A stretch of 64,000 nucleotides of DNA, taken from NCBI GenBank assembly GCA_028292745.1, contig JAQGLT010000054.1, positions 54,511 to 118,510 of the forward strand, written 5' to 3'. The position numbers and the translations under genes are program-made. The first letter of the stretch is position 1. Each line of letters starts with the position of its first letter. Positions 4,406 through 63,020 of this stretch are shown piece after piece. The notes under the pieces are model-generated. The model ran no database searches. It had not been told where the DNA came from and saw nothing but the letters and a program-made list of their open reading frames with translations. The stretch is from Polaromonas sp. GTDB lineage: Bacteria; Pseudomonadota; Gammaproteobacteria; Burkholderiales; Burkholderiaceae_C.

Positions 4406-5638
4406 TTATTTCGAGAGCAGCCGGATCGCTTCCTCAAGTCCCTTGAGGGTCAGGGGATACATGCGCTGGCCCATCAGCTGCTGGATCACGCTGATGCTCT
4501 GCCGGTATTGCCACACGCCCTGCGGTTCCGGGTTGATCCAGGCGAACTTTGGAAAGGCATTGGTCAGCCGCTGCAGCCATTCGGCGCCGGCTTCCTCGTT
4601 GTTGTATTCCACGCTGCCGCCGGCCTGCAATATTTCGTAAGGGCTCATGGTGGCATCGCCGACAAAGATCAGCTTGTAGTCCTTGTTGTACTTGCGGATG
4701 ATGTCCCAGGTCGAAAACTTCTCGGCAAAGCGGCGGCGGTTGTTCTTCCACATGAAGTCATAGACGCAGTTGTGGAAGTAATAGAACTCCAGGTGCTTGA
4801 ATTCGGCCTTCACGGCGGAAAACATTTCCTCGACCCGGTGGATGTGGTCGTCCATGGTGCCGCCCACGTCCATCAGCAGCAGCACCTTCACATTGTTGTG
4901 GCGCTCGGGCACCATCTTGATGTCGAGCCAGCCGGCATTGGCGGCGGTCGAGCGGATGGTGTCGTCCAGGTCAAGCTCTTCCTGGTTGCCCTGGCGGGCG
5001 AACTTGCGCAGCCGGCGCAGCGCGACCTTGATGTTGCGGGTGCCCAGCTCCTGCGTGTCGTCATAGTCCTTGTAGGCGCGCTGGTCCCAGACCTTCACCG
5101 CGCTCCTGTTGCGGCTTTTTTCCTGGCCGATGCGGATGCCCTGCGGATTGAAGCCGTTGGCGCCGAAAGGCGAGGTGCCACCGGTCCCTATCCATTTGCT
5201 GCCGCCTTCGTGTCGCTCTTTCTGCTCTTCAAAACGCTTCTTGAGCGTCTCCATCAGCTCGTCCCAGCCCATTTTTTCGATCTTCGCCTTGTCCTCCGGG
5301 CTCAGTTCAAGCTCCAGGTTCTTGCGCAGCCATTCGAGCGGGATATCTTTCGTGAAGTCGGCCACCGTTTCGACGCCCTTGAAATAGCTGGCGAAGGCGC
5401 GGTCGAACTTGTCGTAGTGCTTTTCGTCCTTTACCAGCACGGTGCGGCTCAGGTAGTAAAAATCGTCGATCTTGTAGGCGCCTTCGCCGACCTCGGCCGT
5501 GGCGCCATCGGCTCCGTCCGCCAGGCCGCTGCGGGGGCCGACCACGCCGGCCTGCAGCGCTTCGAGCAGCATCAGGAATTCCTTGACCGACACCGGCAGT
5601 TTGGCCGAGCGCAGGGTGTAGAAGAAGTCAATTAGCAT
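4406..5638 (-). CDS. VWA (CoxE-like) domain protein
   Basis: 410 aa; VKVLLLMDVGGTMDDHIHRVEEMFSAVKAEFKHLEFYYFHNCVYD is typical of VWA/CoxE proteins; same strand as the MoxR ATPase. Confidence 0.85.
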   Translation of the reverse strand: MLIDFFYTLRSAKLPVSVKEFLMLLEALQAGVVGPRSGLADGADGATAEVGEGAYKIDDFYYLSRTVLVKDEKHYDKFDRAFASYFKGVETVADFTKDIPLEWLRKNLELELSPEDKAKIEKMGWDELMETLKKRFEEQKERHEGGSKWIGTGGTSPFGANGFNPQGIRIGQEKSRNRSAVKVWDQRAYKDYDDTQELGTRNIKVALRRLRKFARQGNQEELDLDDTIRSTAANAGWLDIKMVPERHNNVKVLLLMDVGGTMDDHIHRVEEMFSAVKAEFKHLEFYYFHNCVYDFMWKNNRRRFAEKFSTWDIIRKYNKDYKLIFVGDATMSPYEILQAGGSVEYNNEEAGAEWLQRLTNAFPKFAWINPEPQGVWQYRQSISVIQQLMGQRMYPLTLKGLEEAIRLLSK

Positions 5639-5693
5639 GATTTGTGCCTCCAGCGCAGGTGGTGTATGCGCAGTTAGCTATTAAAAATGTAGC
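5631..5693 (-). repeat. Two-hairpin repeat, copy 1
   Basis: GCTACATTTTTAATAGCTAACTGCGCATACACCACCTGCGCTGGAGGCACAAATCATGCTAAT; contains the RBS and ATG of the VWA gene. Confidence 0.75.
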
Positions 5694-5884
5694 AATTGAT
5701 GTGGAATTCATGGGTTGATCCAGTTTTTTCGGCTTCAGCCCTGGCATACGGGTAAACCATGCGCGCGCTTCGATGGCAGTTGAAGCTCCTTGGGTAGGCG
5801 CAGCGTCTGGCTGTTTGCGGACATAAATGCGGCGGCTGTGGTCATGAGGAATTCCTTGGTTCGCAATACGGCACCGGGAAAAAG

Positions 5885-9908: not shown

Positions 9909-10628
9909 ATGATTAACAAGATTGCCGCTTCGGTGGCAAGCGCGCTTGCCGGCGTGAAGGACGGCGCGACCGTCCTGATCGGCGGTTTCGGCACCGCCGG
10001 CATCCCGGCCGAGCTGATCGACGGGCTGATCGCGCAAGGCGCCCGCGACCTGACGGTGGTCAACAACAACGCTGGAAACGGCGACACCGGGCTGGCCGCG
10101 CTGCTCCAGGCCGGGCGCGTGCGCAAGATCATCTGCAGCTTTCCGCGCCAGGCCGACAGCCATGTCTTCGACGGTCTGTACCGCAGCGGCAAGCTTGAGC
10201 TTGAACTGGTGCCGCAGGGCAACCTGGCCGAGCGCATCCGCGCCGCCGGAGCGGGCATCGGCGCCTTTTTCTGCCCCACCGCCTATGGAACCGAACTGGC
10301 GCGGGGCAAGGAAACGCGCGAGATCAACGGCCGGCAGTACGTGCTGGAATACCCGATTTACGGCGACGTGGCCCTGATCAAGGCCGAGCGCGGCGACCGC
10401 TGGGGCAACCTGACCTACCGCAAGTCGGCGCGCAATTTCGGTCCCGTCATGGCCACGGCGGCCAGGCAGACGGTGGCAACCGTGCATGAAATTGTCGAGC
10501 TTGGCGCCCTGGACCCCGAAAGCATCGTGACGCCGGGCATCCATGTCAGCCAGATCGTGCAGGTCGAGCGCGTCGCGACCCAGGCGGGCGGCATCAAATC
10601 CAGTGCCAAATTGGCCGCGAGCGCATAA
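9909..10628 (+). CDS. pcaI: 3-oxoacid (3-oxoadipate) CoA-transferase subunit A
   Basis: MINKIAASVASALAGVKDGATVLIGGFGTAGIPAELIDGLI; followed by subunit B and thiolase. Confidence 0.88.
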   Translation: MINKIAASVASALAGVKDGATVLIGGFGTAGIPAELIDGLIAQGARDLTVVNNNAGNGDTGLAALLQAGRVRKIICSFPRQADSHVFDGLYRSGKLELELVPQGNLAERIRAAGAGIGAFFCPTAYGTELARGKETREINGRQYVLEYPIYGDVALIKAERGDRWGNLTYRKSARNFGPVMATAARQTVATVHEIVELGALDPESIVTPGIHVSQIVQVERVATQAGGIKSSAKLAASA

Positions 10629-10637
10629 GGATCATGC

Positions 10638-11282
10638 ATGAGTAGCTATCAAAAACGAAGCAAGGAAGACCTGGCCCGGCGCGTGGCGCAGGACATTCCG
10701 GGCGGTGCCTACGTGAACCTGGGCATCGGCATGCCGACGCTTGTCGCCAACCACATTCCGCCCGGTCGCGAGGTGATCCTGCACAGCGAGAACGGCATTC
10801 TCGGCATGGGACAGGCGCCGGCCGCAGGTGCCGAGGATTACGACCTCATCAACGCGGGCAAGCAGCCCGTCACCCTGCTGCCGGGGGGCGCCTATTTTCA
10901 CCATGCCGACAGCTTTGCGATGATGCGCGGCGGGCACCTCGACATCTGCGTGCTCGGCGCCTTCCAGGTCTCCAGCACGGGCGACCTGGCCAACTGGAGC
11001 ACGGGCGAAGCCGGCGCGATTCCGGCCGTGGGCGGCGCCATGGACCTGGCCATCGGCGCCAGGCAGACCTGGGTGATGATGGATTTGCTGACCCGGCAGG
11101 GCCAGAGCAAGGTGGTGGCGCAGTGCAGCTATCCGCTCACGGGCATTGCCTGCGTCAGGCGCATCTACACCGAGCTGGCGACGCTGGCGTGCACGCCCGA
11201 CGGTCTGCAGTGCATTGACAGGGTCGAGGGACTCACCCATGCCGAGCTTGAAGCCCTGGTCGGCCTGCCCATCGCCGCCTGA
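10638..11282 (+). CDS. pcaJ: 3-oxoacid (3-oxoadipate) CoA-transferase subunit B
   Basis: YQKRSKEDLARRVAQDIPGGAYVNLGIGMPTLVANHIPPGREVILHSENGILGMG. Confidence 0.88.
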   Translation: MSSYQKRSKEDLARRVAQDIPGGAYVNLGIGMPTLVANHIPPGREVILHSENGILGMGQAPAAGAEDYDLINAGKQPVTLLPGGAYFHHADSFAMMRGGHLDICVLGAFQVSSTGDLANWSTGEAGAIPAVGGAMDLAIGARQTWVMMDLLTRQGQSKVVAQCSYPLTGIACVRRIYTELATLACTPDGLQCIDRVEGLTHAELEALVGLPIAA

Positions 11283-12608: not shown

Positions 12609-13382
12609 TTGCCAGGACAGCGCTGTGTGAACTTGCCGCTGATCACCGACCCCTTCTTCTACGCCGTGGCCATTCCCGCTGTGCTCCTGCTGGGAGTCAG
12701 CAAAAGCGGCTTCGGCGCCGGTTTTGGCTCGCTGGCGGTGCCCATGATGGCCCTGGCCGTCACGGTTCCGCAGGCGGCCGCCATCCTGATGCCGCTGCTG
12801 CTGCTCATGGACCTGCTCGGGATCGCGGCATTTCGCAAGGACTTCGACTTCAGGTTCCTGCGCTTCCTGGTGCCTTTTGGCCTGGCCGGGACTGTGGTGG
12901 GCGCGTTGCTGTTTCGTCTATTGGATGCGCGGACGGTAGCGGCCGTCGTCGGCGGTTTCACGCTGCTGTTTCTGGCCCAGCGCCTGCTGTTTCCCCCGCA
13001 TCCGGGCAGCGCGCCACCGCCAAAATGGCTGGGCGCGCTGCTGACCATGACCTCGGGCTTCACCAGCTTCGTCGCCCATGCGGGCGGCCCGCCGATCAGC
13101 GCCTATGTGATTCCGCTGCGCCTGAGCCCGGTGAAGTACACCGCCACCATGGCGTTTTTCTTCTTTGTCATCAACCTGTCCAAATGGCTTCCCTACGCCT
13201 GGCTGGGCCTGCTGGACCTGCGCAACATGGCGACCTCGCTGGTGCTGCTGCCATTGGCGCCGGTCGGCGTGTGGTTTGGCGTGCGCATGGCCAAGACCAT
13301 CAGCCCGCTCTGGTTTTATCGCATTTTGTACGGCGGCATGTTTCTGACCGGGGTCAAGCTGCTGTGGGACGGACTGACTTGA
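12609..13382 (+). CDS. TauE/SafE family sulfite exporter-like permease
   Basis: 257 aa multi-TM; VSKSGFGAGFGSLAVPMMALAV, GFTSFVAHAGGPPISAY. Start may be GTG near 12627. Confidence 0.85.
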   Translation: MPGQRCVNLPLITDPFFYAVAIPAVLLLGVSKSGFGAGFGSLAVPMMALAVTVPQAAAILMPLLLLMDLLGIAAFRKDFDFRFLRFLVPFGLAGTVVGALLFRLLDARTVAAVVGGFTLLFLAQRLLFPPHPGSAPPPKWLGALLTMTSGFTSFVAHAGGPPISAYVIPLRLSPVKYTATMAFFFFVINLSKWLPYAWLGLLDLRNMATSLVLLPLAPVGVWFGVRMAKTISPLWFYRILYGGMFLTGVKLLWDGLT

Positions 13383-13384
13383 AC

Positions 13385-13450
13385 GCTATTGAATTAATAG
13401 CTGGCGGGGCATGCCCATATTGCGTAAGAGCCCTATTTCATCAATAATTA
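13385..13450 (+). repeat. Two-hairpin repeat, copy 2
   Basis: gctattgaattaatagctggcggggcatgcccatattgcgtaagagccctatttcatcaataatta; fills the TauE/Kef convergent gap. Confidence 0.82.
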
Positions 13451-15271
13451 ACGCTGTGCGTCCCGACCCTGCCGCGCCAACAACTCGCGCTCCTGCTTCA
13501 TCTGCGCCTCCAGCTGCAGCCGGCCCTGCTTGGCCACGGCGATGACCTTTTCGCGGTTGTCGCGGTGCGGGTACATGCGCTCGAACAGTTCCAGGTTGTG
13601 CGCGCGAAAGCGGTCGGCGGCCTGCTGCGCGGCTTGCGGCGGCTGGCCGAGCAGTTCGAGCACGGTGCGGGCGCTGCGCAGGCTGGAGTCGAACAGCTCG
13701 CGCTCGACGCGCATCACGCCCCGGTCGCGCAGCGCGTTCCAGTGCGGCACGTCGCGGGCGCGGGCAACGATCTGCAACTGTGGAAAATTCTCGCGCACCA
13801 CATCGACGATTTTCAGTGACTGCGCCACGTCATCGACCGACAGCACGAGGATCTGGGCCTGGGCCGCGCCCGCCGTGCGCAGCAGGTCGAGCCGCGCGGC
13901 GTCGCCATAGAACACCCGGTAGCCGAAGGCGCGCACGGTTTCGATCATCTCGGCGTCATGGTCCAGCACGGTGGCTGAAATGCCCTGCGCCAGCAGCATG
14001 CGCCCGACGATCTGGCCATAGCGGCCAAAGCCGGCAATGATGACCGGCGCTTCCTGCGGCTCCGAGATTTCCTTGAGCGTGGATTTCTTGCCCTTGGCAT
14101 AGCGCGGCAGCAGCAGCTTGTCGATGGCCACCAGCAGCAGCGGGCTGACGAGCATCGACAGCGCCACCGCGCCAATCAGCAGCGAAGCCGTTTGCGGCGC
14201 AAACACCCTGGCGCCGGCGGCCGCCTGAAACACCACGAAAGCGAACTCGCCGCCTTGGGCCAGCAGCAGCGTGAACACCGGCCGCTCCTGGTAGGGGAGT
14301 TTCATGGCATAGGCCAGTGCGTAGATGGCCAGCAGCTTCAGGCCCAGGAAGCCGGCCAGGATGGCCAGCATCTGGCCCGGAAATTTCCACAGCACGCCAA
14401 AGTCGATGGTCATGCCCACGGCGATGAAAAACAGGCCCAGCAGCAAGGCCTTGAACGGCTCGATGTCGGTCTCCAGCTCGCGCCGGTATTCGCTCTCGGC
14501 CAGCAGCACGCCGGCCAGAAAGGCGCCCAGCGCCATCGACAGGCCGACCAGCAGCATCAGCGCCGCGATGCCGACCACCAGCTGCAGCGAGGCGGCGGTG
14601 AAGATCTCGGGCGTGCGGCTGTTGGCGATCCAGCGCAGCAGCGGGCGCAGCAGCAGGCGGCCGCCGACGATGATGCCGGCGATCACCGCTATGGTTTTAA
14701 TAGCTTGCAGTGCAGGGTGGTATTGCGCTACAGCATCATTTGATACTGAAAGCATGCCCAGCAGCGGCACCAGGGCCAAAATTGGAATGGCCGCCACGTC
14801 TTGAAACAGGAGGATCGAAAAGCCGGCCTGTCCGCTGGTGGTCCGCATGAGGTTGCGCTCGTTCATTGACTGCAGCGCAATCGCCGTCGATGACAGGGCC
14901 AGTCCCACCCCGGCCACCGCCGCCGTGCGCCAGTCAATGCCGAACAGCATCGCCGCGCCGCTCAGCAGGGCCGCGCAGCTCAGCATCTGAACGCTGCCCC
15001 AGCCAAAGATAGGCCGGCGCAGGCTCCACAAGCGCTGGGGCTGCAACTCCAGGCCGACCAGGAACAGCATCAGCACCACGCCGAATTCGGCAAAATGAAG
15101 GATGTCCTGCACATTGGTCACCAGGCCCAGCCCCCACGGCCCGATGGCAATGCCGGCGGCCAGGTAGCCAATGATGGAGCCCAGGCCGAGCTTTTTGGCC
15201 AGCGGCACCGCCACCACGGCGGCTGCCAGGTAGATGAAGCTGTTGATCAGCCAGGCAGGCGCGTGGCTCAT
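13448..15271 (-). CDS. CPA2 cation:proton antiporter with RCK domain (KefB/KefC type)
   Basis: 607 aa; Na/H exchanger TMs plus VIIAGFGRYGQIVGRMLLAQGISATVLDHDAEMIE Rossmann motif. Confidence 0.9.
   Translation of the reverse strand: MSHAPAWLINSFIYLAAAVVAVPLAKKLGLGSIIGYLAAGIAIGPWGLGLVTNVQDILHFAEFGVVLMLFLVGLELQPQRLWSLRRPIFGWGSVQMLSCAALLSGAAMLFGIDWRTAAVAGVGLALSSTAIALQSMNERNLMRTTSGQAGFSILLFQDVAAIPILALVPLLGMLSVSNDAVAQYHPALQAIKTIAVIAGIIVGGRLLLRPLLRWIANSRTPEIFTAASLQLVVGIAALMLLVGLSMALGAFLAGVLLAESEYRRELETDIEPFKALLLGLFFIAVGMTIDFGVLWKFPGQMLAILAGFLGLKLLAIYALAYAMKLPYQERPVFTLLLAQGGEFAFVVFQAAAGARVFAPQTASLLIGAVALSMLVSPLLLVAIDKLLLPRYAKGKKSTLKEISEPQEAPVIIAGFGRYGQIVGRMLLAQGISATVLDHDAEMIETVRAFGYRVFYGDAARLDLLRTAGAAQAQILVLSVDDVAQSLKIVDVVRENFPQLQIVARARDVPHWNALRDRGVMRVERELFDSSLRSARTVLELLGQPPQAAQQAADRFRAHNLELFERMYPHRDNREKVIAVAKQGRLQLEAQMKQERELLARQGRDAQR
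14688..14753 (+). repeat. Two-hairpin repeat, copy 3 (inside the Kef CDS)
   Basis: gctatggttttaatagcttgcagtgcagggtggtattgcgctacagcatcatttgatactgaaag. Confidence 0.75.
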
Positions 15272-24339: not shown

Positions 24340-25083
24340 ATGATTTTTCCTCTGCATTCTCGGCGGTTTTGGCTGCTGACGCTGGCTGCCGTGCTGGTGG
24401 CCGGCTTAACTTTTTCTCTTGGCCAGTGGCAATTGCGTCGCGCCGCTCAAAAAGAAACGGTTCAATCTGTCATTGAAGCAAAAAAAAGGCTTCCTGCGCT
24501 TGATAACAAAGGACTGGCAGCTACTAAAAATGTAGCAGACGACATGTATCGACAGGCTGTGCTTCAAGGGGTCTGGCAGCCCCGGCACACCGTTTACCTC
24601 GACAACCGTCCAATGGGTGGACGAACCGGTTTTTGGGTGCTGACGCCGCTGGTGCTGCAAGGGACGGGCCAGACCATTGTGGTGCAACGTGGTTGGGTGC
24701 CACGCGATTTTGCCGATCGAACCCGTCTGCCACAGGTGCTGACACCGCCCGGCCTTGTTGAAGTCGCGGGCCGTATTGCCCCGCCACCTTCCAAGCTATA
24801 CGAGTTCAGTGGCATGGAGGTCGGCTCCATACGGCAAAATCTGGACATGGCCGCTTTTCGTCTTGAAACCGGACTGCCGCTCTTAGAGGCCTCTTTGCTG
24901 CAAACAGGCGCACCCACCGAGGGCCTGCTACGGGATTGGGCCACACCTGATCGAGGGGTCGACACCCATTACGGTTACGCCTTTCAGTGGTTCGGCCTGT
25001 GCGGTGGGGTTGTCTTCCTCTATTTATGGTTTCAGGTGATTGTTCCTTTTCGTGTTTTCTTGCGCGCCCGACGCCGTCCTTAA
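24340..25083 (+). CDS. SURF1 family cytochrome oxidase biogenesis protein
   Basis: LTFSLGQWQLRRAAQKE...YLDNRPMGGRTGFWVLTPL...VQRGWVPRDFADR...YAFQWFGL. Confidence 0.92.
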   Translation: MIFPLHSRRFWLLTLAAVLVAGLTFSLGQWQLRRAAQKETVQSVIEAKKRLPALDNKGLAATKNVADDMYRQAVLQGVWQPRHTVYLDNRPMGGRTGFWVLTPLVLQGTGQTIVVQRGWVPRDFADRTRLPQVLTPPGLVEVAGRIAPPPSKLYEFSGMEVGSIRQNLDMAAFRLETGLPLLEASLLQTGAPTEGLLRDWATPDRGVDTHYGYAFQWFGLCGGVVFLYLWFQVIVPFRVFLRARRRP

Positions 25084-29682: not shown

Positions 29683-29859
29683 ACAGTAGATCCAATGGAC
29701 TAAATAGCGTAAGGCTAAATGTATTTGGCTGTCACGATCGATTAGGACAGTTCAATGAACGCTTGGTTCAGACGTTTGCGTTACCGGCTTGTAAAGCCAG
29801 CAAAAATAAGAAATTTTCGCAGTTCAGTCTGACATTGATTTGGCGATATATTTTCTACA

Positions 29860-29923
29860 CTACTGTTTTAATAGCTGAACGCGCTTATGTGTATTGCGCT
29901 AGAGCCTTGTTTGATGCTTAAAA
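29860..29923 (+). repeat. Two-hairpin repeat, copy 5
   Basis: ctactgttttaatagctgaacgcgcttatgtgtattgcgctagagccttgtttgatgcttaaaac. Confidence 0.82.
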
Positions 29924-30083
29924 CTTGCGGTTGACTTGGTGTTGCGGCTAGCGCAAGACACGGCGGCGGCAAGGAGGCATGCAGTTTGAAGCCCGGCCAT
30001 GAACCAGGCCCCGCCCCAACCCTGTTTCCCGTCAAGCGGTTGAAGCGTTGGCGTTACCTTGCGCGCCTGGGGCTTGGCCGCAA

Positions 30084-33221: not shown

Positions 33222-33251
33222 ATCGCATTGTTGAACCAGATCACTCAAATT

Positions 33252-34607
33252 ATGATTTTTGCTACTAAAAAAATAGCTGCTCGCGCAGCAGTCATATGCG
33301 CTGCAGGTCTTTTTGTTCATGTATATGCGCTGGCGACGATTCCCGTCCAGCACTGGACGCAGGCCAGCGGCGCAAGGGTCTATCTGGTCGAGAGCCCGGC
33401 CGTTGCCATGCTGGACGTGCAACTGGACTTCGATGCCGGCAGCCGGCGCGACCCCCCGGCCCAGGCGGGGCTGGCGAGCATGACGGCGGACATGCTTGAA
33501 AAAGGTGTCGAGGCCAGAAACGGCGCGCCGGCCCTGGATGAAAACGCGCTGGGCGAAGCCTGGGCCGACCTGGGCGCGCAATTTGGCGCCAGCGTCTCCT
33601 CCGACCGCATGAGTTTTTCGCCGCGTTCGCTCACCGATCCCGGTTTGCTCGACAAGGCCGTGGCGCTGGCGGCGCGCCAAATTGCCGAGCCGTCCTTTCC
33701 CGATGCCGTCTGGCAGCGCGAACGCCAGCGGCTGCAGGCCGCGCTCAAGGAGTCGTACACCCGCCCAGGCAGCGTGGTTGGCCGGGCCTACGGGCAGGCG
33801 GTCTATGGCGCGCATCCTTACGGCTACGAAATGACCGAAGCCACGCTGGGCCGCATCAGCGTGGCGGACCTGAAGGATGCGCATGCCGCGGGCGTCGCGG
33901 CCTGCCGCGCTCGCATCAGCCTGGTGGGCGCCGTCACGCGGGCGCAGGCCGACGCCATTGCCGCGCGGCTGTTGGCGCGGCTTCCCCCGGTGCCCTGCGC
34001 CGCCCTGCCGGCGCTGCCGGCCGTGCCCGAGGTGCCCGCGCTGGCGCAGGCCCAGGAAAAAATCATCCCGTTCGACGCCGCCCAGGCGCATGTGCTGATC
34101 GGCCAGCCCGGCTTCAAACGCAGCGACCCCGACTACTTTCCCCTGATTGTGGGCAACTACATTCTGGGCGGCGGCGGTTTTGTCTCGCGCCTGACCCATG
34201 AGGTGCGCGAAAAGCGCGGCCTGACGTACGGCATTTCCAGTTCGTTCTCGCCCGGGTTGCATGCGGGCAGCTTTACCGTCGGGCTGCAGACCCGGCCCGA
34301 CCAGACCGTGCAGGCGGTCCAGCTTGTGCGCCAGGTGGTGAAAGACTTTGTCGCCAGCGGACCGACCGAGGCCGAACTGAAGGCGGCCAAGGACAACCTG
34401 ATTGGCGGCTTTGCGTTGCGCATCGACAGCAACCGCAAGCTTCTGGCGAATCTGGCCGGCATCGCCTGGAACGATCTGCCGCTCGACTACCTCGACACCT
34501 GGACGCAGCAGGTGGGGAAAGTCACGGTTGCCGACATCAGCGCAGCGTTTGCGCGCAAGCTGCAGCCCGACAGAATGGTCACTGTTATTCTCGGAGCCGC
34601 ACCATGA
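33252..34607 (+). CDS. M16 family peptidase homolog without HxxEH motif
   Basis: IPVQHWTQASGARVYLVESPAVAMLDVQLDFDAGSRRDPPAQAGLASMTADML; HxxEH position reads SMTAD. Confidence 0.9.
   Translation: MIFATKKIAARAAVICAAGLFVHVYALATIPVQHWTQASGARVYLVESPAVAMLDVQLDFDAGSRRDPPAQAGLASMTADMLEKGVEARNGAPALDENALGEAWADLGAQFGASVSSDRMSFSPRSLTDPGLLDKAVALAARQIAEPSFPDAVWQRERQRLQAALKESYTRPGSVVGRAYGQAVYGAHPYGYEMTEATLGRISVADLKDAHAAGVAACRARISLVGAVTRAQADAIAARLLARLPPVPCAALPALPAVPEVPALAQAQEKIIPFDAAQAHVLIGQPGFKRSDPDYFPLIVGNYILGGGGFVSRLTHEVREKRGLTYGISSSFSPGLHAGSFTVGLQTRPDQTVQAVQLVRQVVKDFVASGPTEAELKAAKDNLIGGFALRIDSNRKLLANLAGIAWNDLPLDYLDTWTQQVGKVTVADISAAFARKLQPDRMVTVILGAAP
33261..33320 (+). repeat. Two-hairpin repeat, copy 6 (inside M16 signal peptide)
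   Basis: gctactaaaaaaatagctgctcgcgcagcagtcatatgcgctgcaggtctttttgttcat. Confidence 0.78.
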
Positions 34608-35278: not shown

Positions 35279-35358
35279 AGCTGCGCAGCGTCCGTGCAGC
35301 TCCTAGGGTCACGCCAGGGCAGGGCAGCCCGGAAGCGGTGCACGGGCATAATTCAGCC

Positions 35359-36128
<770 letters not shown>

Positions 36129-36159
36129 GCGGGCACGGTTGCGGATGCCCTCGAGCGCC

Positions 36160-36225
36160 GATTTAATGATCGAATTTCCCTCTTGCGCAAGAACAGCGGG
36201 AGAAGTTTGCCATAAAAATGGTAGC
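36160..36225 (-). repeat. Two-hairpin repeat, copy 7
   Basis: GCTACCATTTTTATGGCAAACTTCTCCCGCTGTTCTTGCGCAAGAGGGAAATTCGATCATTAAATCG; ferredoxin/pth convergent gap. Confidence 0.72.
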
Positions 36226-36230
36226 AAAAA

Positions 36231-36884
36231 CTAGTTGAGCTTGGGTTGTGCTACTGCCGCGCCTTCAGTCACTTCAGGGGAAACGGCAGGCCGTGCTGGC
36301 TTGAGCCGGGGTGGCTGGCTGGTGTGAATCATCATGGTGGCTTTTTCCATCTCGCCTTTCAGCAGCGCGGGCACGGCCTTCAGACACCGTTCAATGCAGT
36401 CTTCAATCGCCACGCGATGTTCTGGCGACGGTTTTTTCAAAACCCAGTGGATGACTTCCGATTTGACGCCGGGATGTCCCACGCCCAGCCGCAAGCGCCA
36501 GTAATCAGCCGAGCCCAGTTGCGCATGAATGTCGCGCAACCCATTATGGCCGGCATGGCTGCCACCAAACTTGAGCTTGACCTGCCCGGGAACGATGTCG
36601 AGTTCGTCATGCGCCACCAGGACTTCGGCAGGGGAAACCTTGAAGAACCGGGCCAATGCGGCAACCGATTTTCCTGACAGGTTCATGAACGTCAGCGGCT
36701 TGAGCAGCCAGACCGTCTGGCCATTGACCATGGTGCGGGCTACTTGCCCATGGTAGTTCTTGTCCAGGCTGAGCGGGGCCTTCAACTCGCGGGCCAGGGC
36801 GTCAATCCACCAGAAACCGGCATTGTGCCGCGTGGCTTCGTATTCGGGGCCCGGATTGCCCAGGCCAACAAACAGTTTGATCAT
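36231..36884 (-). CDS. pth: Peptidyl-tRNA hydrolase
   Basis: [45 protein letters not shown]. Confidence 0.97.
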
Positions 36885-40077: not shown

Positions 40078-40593
40078 CTATCGGTCCAGAATAACCCGAA
40101 GATCAGCTTGCGGAGCCGGTTGCACACGCTTGGCGGAAATTCGGCCTTCCCCGTGCCGCGACAGATCGGCAATCCAGCCGTTGGCGCTGACACTGGCATG
40201 GTCGCCTTGGAGCCAGCCAAACAAAGCGCTCAGCGGCACGGCGGTGCCGGTGGCTTGCGTCATCAAGGCATCGACAGAAGCAAAGCGCTGAATCTGTTGC
40301 GGGCCTGAATCCAATTGCGCTTCGCCTGGTGACCAGCGCAAGATGCCCAGCACGTTCCCAAGCGGGCTGATCAAGGTCAGCTCGCCGCTTTCGGGCTTTC
40401 CCTTGAGTTCAAAGCTTGCAGAAAAAGACTGCGCAGGCTCGCTCAGCACCTGTAGGCTGATACGCCCGGACCAAGACTCTTTTTTTTGTTCATTTAGTGC
40501 TGTGGCGCTTATGGGACGTGCGCATCCAGCTATAAAAAACGTAGCAAATAGGCAGCAGGAGATCAGCAGGCGTAGACGAGCGGAAAGGTGCAA
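40078..40593 (-). CDS. lolB: Outer membrane lipoprotein LolB
   Basis: Lipobox FIAGC; WSGRISLQVLSEPAQSFSASFELKGKPESGELTLISPLGNVLGILRWSPGEAQL; gene order with ispE/prs. Confidence 0.9.
   Translation of the reverse strand: MHLSARLRLLISCCLFATFFIAGCARPISATALNEQKKESWSGRISLQVLSEPAQSFSASFELKGKPESGELTLISPLGNVLGILRWSPGEAQLDSGPQQIQRFASVDALMTQATGTAVPLSALFGWLQGDHASVSANGWIADLSRHGEGRISAKRVQPAPQADLRVILDR
40482..40545 (-). repeat. Two-hairpin repeat, copy 8 (inside lolB signal peptide)
   Basis: GCTACGTTTTTTATAGCTGGATGCGCACGTCCCATAAGCGCCACAGCACTAAATGAACAAAAAA. Confidence 0.78.
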
Positions 40594-56252: not shown

Positions 56253-56348
56253 CCTGACATGGCCCCACCCAGCATGGCCCGGCCACTACCGATACCCCTG
56301 GCAACATCGCGCTGGCTTGCAATAGCCGCGTTTCCGGCAGCATTGGAT

Positions 56349-56415
56349 GCTATTGAAGTTATAGCTGGCCGCGCAATACCCACCTGCGATAGAGGCCTAT
56401 TTGATGCTAAAAATG
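56349..56415 (+). repeat. Two-hairpin repeat, copy 9
   Basis: gctattgaagttatagctggccgcgcaatacccacctgcgatagaggcctatttgatgctaaaaatgc. Confidence 0.82.
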
Positions 56416-56495
56416 CTAAAAAAAAGTTTGCAGGCTGAAACAAAACCGCTGTAGCGCCACCCCTTTTCGCCATCCCTTCAAGAAAGACAACCCAC

Positions 56496-60144: not shown

Positions 60145-60213
60145 GAGGCGATACTGAAAGGTGGCGCGGCAAACCGCGCTTGTGGTCACGCGTGGTCACG
60201 CAAGGCAGAGTCT

Positions 60214-60275
60214 GCTATTAAATAAATAGCGTGCTGCGCAGGTGGGTCAAGCGCCAGATGCCAAAAAGTCTTATA
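60214..60275 (+). repeat. Two-hairpin repeat, copy 10 (folE leader)
   Basis: gctattaaataaatagcgtgctgcgcaggtgggtcaagcgccagatgccaaaaagtcttat. Confidence 0.7.
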
Positions 60276-60320
60276 AACCCAACACCGGCACGGGTGTGGG
60301 GCCGGCTGGTAATATCCGAC

Positions 60321-62374: not shown

Positions 62375-62401
62375 CATTTCGCCCAACCTGCCCGCCATGA
62401 T

Positions 62402-62468
62402 AGGATTTTTAGATGATTTAAGCTGTTTACGCAGGCAGGGTAAGCGCTTTAAGCTATCAATTTAGTAG
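62402..62468 (-). repeat. Two-hairpin repeat, copy 11 (upstream of SNase)
   Basis: CTACTAAATTGATAGCTTAAAGCGCTTACCCTGCCTGCGTAAACAGCTTAAATCATCTAAAAATCCTA. Confidence 0.65.
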
Positions 62469-62474
62469 TAACAC

Positions 62475-63020
62475 ATGAACACACCTTCTGCTTTGAAAAT
62501 AGGCATGCTTGCCATTTTTGCCACTCTGCTCAATTTTTCTAGCATGGGGGCGGCCGCGGCAGCCCGAACAGCCAGAACAAGCTGGACGGGCGTCGTGACC
62601 TATGTGGTGGATGGCGATACCGTCCGCATACAGCGGCCCAAAGGCAGCAAGCCGGTCAGCGTTCGCATCGATGGGATCGACGCGCCGGAAATCTGCCAGC
62701 CGGGAGGCACGGCTGCCCGCGACGCACTGAAGCGCCGGGTGCTGGGCAAGCCTGTCGTGGTGCAAAGCAAGGCTCGCGACAACTACGGGCGCCTGGTGGC
62801 CCGCATTGTGTTTGATCAGCAGGACCAGGGCGGCTGGCTGGTGGCGCAAGGGCTGGCATGGTCTTACCGCTACCGAAACAATGCAGGCCCCTATGCTGCT
62901 CAGCAAGGCCGTGCCCAGAAGGCAAGACTTGGGATGTTTTCACCGGTTTATGCCGCAGCCCCTGTGTACCCAGCCGAGTTTCGGAAAAAGCATGGAAGCT
63001 GCTATGCCCGGTACCGTTAA
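62475..63020 (+). CDS. Secreted thermonuclease/SNase-like nuclease
   Basis: VVTYVVDGDTVRIQRPKGSKPVSVRIDGIDAPEICQPGGTAARDALKRRVLGKPV...DNYGRLVARI. Confidence 0.94.
   Translation: MNTPSALKIGMLAIFATLLNFSSMGAAAAARTARTSWTGVVTYVVDGDTVRIQRPKGSKPVSVRIDGIDAPEICQPGGTAARDALKRRVLGKPVVVQSKARDNYGRLVARIVFDQQDQGGWLVAQGLAWSYRYRNNAGPYAAQQGRAQKARLGMFSPVYAAAPVYPAEFRKKHGSCYARYR

Follow-up and report, generated by a model that had tools for sequence, protein, structure and literature searches.

With very little doubt, the Polaromonas genome analysed here contains a dense, chromosome-wide 68-bp DNA motif whose parts keep an indel-free spacing, which exists in several dialects, is absent from the sampled plasmids and was formed in place within existing DNA; one of its copies lies over the lipobox of lolB and follows the dialect of its genome. 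On balance, we favour the reading that the lolB site is one of some 700–800 copies built by substitution and kept by selection or biased exchange, most likely as a mark for the uptake of self-DNA. With slightly less conviction, and as a tentative proposal for the group as a whole, a Comamonadaceae-type subset of the Burkholderiales that includes Polaromonas may possess an unrecognised system of self-DNA uptake or self-recognition, whose 68-bp dialect signal would rewrite codons of core genes, those of the LolB lipobox region among them, as the dialect shifts.

The motif copy within lolB

In the window (the whole stretch of 64,000 nucleotides that was analysed), the lolB gene encoding the outer-membrane lipoprotein LolB is situated at positions 40078..40593 of the minus strand (171 aa, with a TTG start as listed), between a gene encoding a TPR protein and ispE. 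Its assignment is based on the open reading frame, the Pfam domain PF03550 (57.8 bits) and an IAG-C lipobox from which lipidation is predicted. Eight named lolB relatives were found, all of them from Polaromonas. Compared with solved LolB structures, the protein showed marginal similarity (best E 0.056) despite the clear Pfam match.

The model R1, built from 26 other copies with lolB excluded, matched the lolB site at 40472-40551 (minus strand; 64.9 bits, E 5.5e-15), the top score of the window, and the 68-bp copy itself, in the GCGC dialect, spans 40482..40549 on the minus strand. An earlier note on this DNA had marked 40482-40545 as a repeat, which is almost exactly the motif as read from 40549 to 40482; the lolB codons, frame and translation that it gave are exact, and its placement of the lipobox and the N-terminus of mature LolB on a repeat copy holds, the element being genome-wide and recognised in lolB by a model free of lolB. 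Specifically, the lipobox codons ATA GCT GGA TGC (I-A-G-C; 40522..40533, minus strand) correspond to motif positions 17-28, the TGC codon of the lipobox Cys (40524-40522, minus strand) occupying positions 26-28. The Cys+5 codon, AGC for Ser (40507..40509, minus strand; motif positions 41-43), holds the base that distinguishes the dialects and is AGG (Arg) in most relatives of the GGGC dialect. Third codon positions in lolB are 65% AT inside the motif versus 22% elsewhere.

Definition and copy number of the motif

Searched against its own genome, the lolB DNA gave 39 matches, many of which fell on query positions 72-116, and the alignment of 26 copies with lolB left out was nearly gap-free. A weight matrix iterated over 459 kb of this genome, taken as stretches and not as the whole genome, defined a motif of 68 bp and about 51 bits, beyond which the information drops immediately to zero. 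The 459 kb contained 96 copies, i.e., one per 4.8 kb, and extrapolation from them gives about 700-800 (~790) for the whole genome. Under the same matrix, Markov-simulated and reversed control sequences contained none, so that the copy number stands far above chance (96 vs 0), as in the DNA uptake sequences DUS and USS, and a nearly empty gap in the score distribution separated noise from true copies. The consensus in this genome is TTTGCTATTnAAtTnATAGCTgctTGCGCA-n9-TGCGCtAgAGgCctATTTgAtnnnnAAA, with the skeleton GCTAT..ATAGCT..TTT..AAA and a conserved ATAGC core; individual copies have 36-50% GC and are thus AT-rich relative to the genome. Pairwise identity among copies spreads more broadly than column shuffles give. 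In three contigs of the genome (C128, C77 and C101), a few copies lie just 94-210 bp apart, possibly through local duplication or as paired sites.

The A-tracts of the motif are composed of AA or TT and are not mixed, and the dependence between columns is almost solely one between neighbouring bases, mainly in AA/TT steps, as might be expected if a protein reads the shape of the DNA. Because the copies occur in both orientations, with fixed spacing and unmixed A-tracts, whatever reads the site, probably a protein, would recognise double-stranded DNA. A structured RNA, terminator or attenuator acting in transcripts is improbable by comparison: the arms GCTAT..ATAGC and the inner arms GCGCA..TGCGC or GCCCA..TGGGC are complementary in two dialects, but the inner arms are not so in all of them, RNAalifold retained only 3 pairs with no covariation within the genome, and the intragenic copies lie both sense and antisense to their genes (24 and 17, respectively). 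Rfam returned no family match at motif sites and, across the window, only two tRNAs.

Approximately 13 strong R1 matches are found in the window, that in lolB being the best. Some of them lie in or at genes: one overlaps the first codons of the ORF 4406-5638 (5620..5699, minus strand; 58 bits), another crosses the junction between the genes 9909-10628 and 10638-11282 (10588..10667, minus strand; 45.4 bits), and a third sits between convergent ORFs (13379..13458, plus strand; 46.8 bits). The gene of a Kef-type antiporter (13448-15271, minus strand) contains an antisense copy (14682..14761, plus strand), while coaD (35338-35856, plus strand) carries one in antisense orientation within a conserved stretch, with no insertion (35479..35558, minus strand; 36.3 bits), and the gene of an M16 peptidase homologue (33228-34607, plus strand) carries one over its N-terminal signal-like sequence (33255..33334, plus strand). 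Intergenic copies are located at 56343..56422 (plus strand; 56.1 bits), 29853..29932 (plus strand; 51.5 bits), 62396..62475 (minus strand; 41.4 bits) and 36152..36231 (minus strand; 29.7 bits). Further matches lie at 60208..60287 (plus strand; 40.5 bits) and, weakly, at 24463..24542 (minus strand; 27.6 bits).

Origin of the copies in existing DNA

Each copy would arise in place by point substitutions and then be kept by selection or biased gene exchange. The offset between the left and right halves of the motif is 38 for 88 of 90 pairs in the genome under study and for all 31 pairs of genome G150, and left-half matches of more than 14 bits that lack the right half number 57 and 48 in the two genomes, respectively. 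Copies wholly within genes amounted to 26/96 in our genome and 15/48 in G150, including those in coaD, murG, dapF and the gene of a CCA-enzyme homologue; these counts are approximate because the genes were called as ORFs by a home-made codon score. Across the motif, CoaD aligns without gaps to its PDB homologues, while MurG shows a gap of 2 residues, DapF one of about 10 and the CCA-enzyme homologue 8 extra residues, none of which equals the ~22 residues that the motif would encode. For instance, one copy of 57.9 bits in our genome corresponds to −9.6 bits in its G150 ortholog (85% protein identity, 0 gaps), and the coaD copy of 40.5 bits to −31.8 bits (80% protein identity, 0 gaps); in a third such pair, in the signal region of an SCO1-like protein, there is a gap of 3 residues. 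Since presence or absence of the motif between species leaves the protein length unchanged, the motif was built from existing bases and not inserted, and its occurrence in coding as well as intergenic DNA by substitution is again that of DUS and USS.

The "mobile-type repeat" of the earlier note was not borne out, the element being a rigid, indel-free motif gained and lost by substitution without a change in protein length. A MITE- or REP-like repeat inserted into lolB and now supplying its lipobox is therefore the least credible of the readings considered here, even with the high copy number, the intergenic bias and the dyad-like parts of the motif, and with a fragment of it already listed among the overrepresented motif pairs of P. 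naphthalenivorans CJ2 (PMC5217627). Inserted extra bases, as left by a MITE or REP, are missing where orthologs with and without the motif differ by zero gaps, and no residues have been added in LolB or in the motif-bearing enzymes. The lipobox, moreover, exists without the motif. Descent from common copies, subfamilies and decay by indels were likewise not seen, the spacing being fixed and the dependence between columns limited to neighbours, with one 91%-identical pair. Rickettsia palindromic elements and other MITEs within genes (PMC10969869) are, like the motif, repeated and overlap reading frames in frame, but they are insertions that lengthen the host protein (PMC10969869), whereas the motif adds no residues, as seen in the distance from the Cys to the conserved GR motif of LolB and in the ungapped CoaD. 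Shared ancestry of the copies was also considered and rejected, strong column dependence being nearly confined to neighbouring bases and mostly to AA/TT. The pair of 91% identity may reflect an occasional duplication.

Regarding previously described repeats, the beta-proteobacterial repeat element BRE (PMC3110155) is similarly dispersed, occurs in Polaromonas and Bordetella and has some copies in genes; it was rejected by its description as an element of ~90 bp that is rich in GC (69% in Bordetella) and frequently arranged in tandem, in contrast to the AT-rich and dispersed motif. A closer precedent is the pair ATAGCT(N)22CAAAAG, reported in 2017 as overrepresented in CJ2 with 125 copies, 18 of them in genes, and with no function given (PMC5217627), which coincides exactly with positions 17-22 and 45-50 of the motif in its CJ2 dialect. 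The same study lists the pair GCTTAT(N)5AAGCG in Acidovorax ebreus, resembling the AAGCGC dialects of other genera; its two short anchors in two genomes come without the full motif, its dialects, the origin within genes or a function (PMC5217627). In the open-licence literature we found no description of the complete motif or its dialects, nor of its origin in place or its effect on lolB. The motif accounts for hundreds of "repeats" in such genomes.

Motif and lipobox in LolB orthologs

The motif core was present at the same lolB codons in 41 of the 55 orthologs tested, with a marked difference between the genomes that bear the motif genome-wide (36/39) and those with few or no GCGC or GGGC matches (5/16), some of which may have other dialects. 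Motif-less orthologs carry a lipobox-like Cys in contexts such as LAGC, LTGC or ASGC, written in GC-rich codons, and in one case LLEAC, the lipobox Cys being called by script as the last Cys ahead of the GR motif. The distance from this Cys to the conserved GR is mostly 19 residues with the motif and 14-19 without it. As orthologs from motif-less genomes have their Cys at a similar distance from GR, the lipobox Cys is independent of the motif. The alignment of lolB orthologs proposed in the earlier note thus speaks against its suggestion that a repeat had been co-opted to form the lipidation site, the Cys persisting at about the same place in other codons. What survives of that suggestion is a more limited shaping of the lipobox: the ATAGCT core fixes Ile-Ala, while the Cys does not depend on the motif and the motif is not specific to lolB.

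The residue at position −3 is mostly Ile in motif-bearing orthologs, and this Ile is encoded by ATA in every one analysed. Motif base 43, with which the Cys+5 codon ends (AGC for Ser or AGG for Arg), tracks the dialect of the genome ([[7,2],[3,21]]; Fisher P 8e-4, with relatedness not removed), 5 of 33 lolB copies being off their genome's dialect at this base. Judged from the codons, the motif writes residues beside the predicted lipid anchor of LolB (Ile-Ala through ATA-GCT, and Ser or Arg at Cys+5) and did not create the lipidation site; in lolB it would have settled on a pre-existing, permissive lipobox.

Other signal sequences host the motif as well. A TctC receptor, an SLT transglycosylase, a DsbD-like protein and the M16 peptidase homologue each have an in-frame copy over their signal-like N-terminal sequence, where the motif is translated into peptides like FIAACAxPISATG. 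Signal sequences are a permissive address for the motif because, in this frame, it reads as hydrophobic and then small residues. Among the intragenic copies, 9/41 start within the first 40 codons versus 5.4 expected, which as a positional test is weak. Whatever the function of the motif, signals at the level of DNA can dictate residues beside the LolB lipid anchor, a caution against taking conserved peptides as protein function.

Dialects and comparison with uptake sequences

Most motif-rich genomes have almost solely the GCGC or the GGGC form, and a few are mixed. Their respective counts were 276 and 5 in the genome under study, 283 and 8 in G024, 6 and 289 in G150, and 11 and 397 in G094; G024, a genome of the same genus, consists of nine contigs, its chromosome measuring 4,410,291 bp, and was taken to be that of P. 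naphthalenivorans CJ2. Genomes G118 and G094 showed further inner cores on the same skeleton. At nine intragenic sites common to our genome and G150, both copies scored best with the matrix of their own genome in eight, the ninth being tied on one side, with matrices trained on sets that contained these shared sites. In the family, where the GCGC form was the one sought, it was found in 17 of 71 genomes. In the counts of the GCGC and GGGC forms, both were absent from several genomes, some of them of the same genus. The inner core of G118, ATAGCTGCTCCCGCGATATTCTATTGGGCTGG, is unusually uniform, as if recently homogenised.

Biased uptake is the likely driver of dialect change in uptake sequences. 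By analogy with DUS and USS, the motif may mark its own chromosome for recognition in DNA uptake: better-matching fragments would enter the cell and recombine more frequently, and the dialect would therefore spread over hundreds of loci. That a protein reads the motif, that it serves in uptake and that a drive spreads it are each about evenly balanced in our estimation. Uptake sequences are the best-known case in which relatives differ in dialect over many loci (PMC3630211), and the Comamonadaceae include Verminephrobacter eiseniae, which is naturally transformable with hints of a sequence preference (PMC4212676). Like the motif, the DUS of Neisseriaceae and the USS of Pasteurellaceae occur in hundreds of copies, in both orientations and in coding and intergenic DNA; they are formed in place, have species dialects within a family (PMC3630211), a trait found here as well, and are scarce in plasmids and islands. 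They differ from it in their core of 9-12 bp (10-12 bp for DUS), the motif being far longer (68 bp, about 50 bits) and having a skeleton that stays constant around a variable inner core. No short strong core of 9-12 bp and no invariant 9-bp core were found within the motif, its information being spread over the 68 bp; the motif is thus at most DUS/USS-like and is not filed as one of them. No paper treating both uptake sequences and Comamonadaceae was found in the open-licence literature. If the motif is an uptake signal, it would bring species-selective transformation to a large environmental family and would greatly exceed all known signals in length, and its many dialects would lend themselves to identifying the receptor and to following a signal as it changes genome-wide.

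Chromosomal distribution

All listed CJ2 matches are located on the chromosome. Specifically, 200 kb of CJ2 plasmids contained 0 copies, compared with 35 in 200 kb of the CJ2 chromosome. In G150, a 62-kb segment without the motif (contig C1, about 724766-787246) coincides with a surface-sugar cluster whose genes lie nearly all on one strand and encode, among others, NeuB (twice), a cytidylyltransferase, an NTP transferase and an epimerase. The scarcity on plasmids and acquired islands that characterises DUS and USS is therefore seen here, in one species and one island. A marker of self for a defence or plasmid-exclusion system, instead of for the uptake machinery, would also account for a species-specific motif that is dense on the chromosome and absent from the sampled plasmid DNA; CJ2, however, keeps several plasmids without the motif, and we regard this alternative as having a slim chance of being correct.

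The motif prefers intergenic DNA, and its copies are spaced more evenly than random (CV 0.80 vs 0.96, P 0.03; P 0.001 against an intergenic-weighted null). In CJ2, 151 matches are on the plus and 132 on the minus strand, and the forward matches are evenly spread along the chromosome, so that strand polarity along the replichores is lacking, as in DUS and USS. A polar motif of the KOPS or Chi kind or one restricted to the terminus was rejected, given this even spread. The even spacing, the confinement to the chromosome, the intergenic preference and the two orientations, together with the A-tracts and a dyad-like inner core, fit the main rival to an uptake mark, namely a site of chromosome architecture that a protein of the nucleoid, of segregation or of topology would require once per ~5 kb and with which the dialects would coevolve. 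We consider it unlikely, although clearly ahead of the other alternatives, as a dialect switch at hundreds of sites between species of one genus is hard to account for without biased exchange, and a chromosome-wide architectural role fits poorly with the sugar-cluster island devoid of the motif, with the several genomes, some of the same genus, that lack both tested forms, and with CJ2, which shows no polarity or terminus restriction.

Regarding the uptake machinery itself, a ComEC match was found in 28 of 29 genomes; its presence is uninformative because it is shared by genomes with and without the motif. The one genome with no ComEC match, G099, bears the motif and is 100% complete, and may have lost transformation or harbour a gene that was missed.
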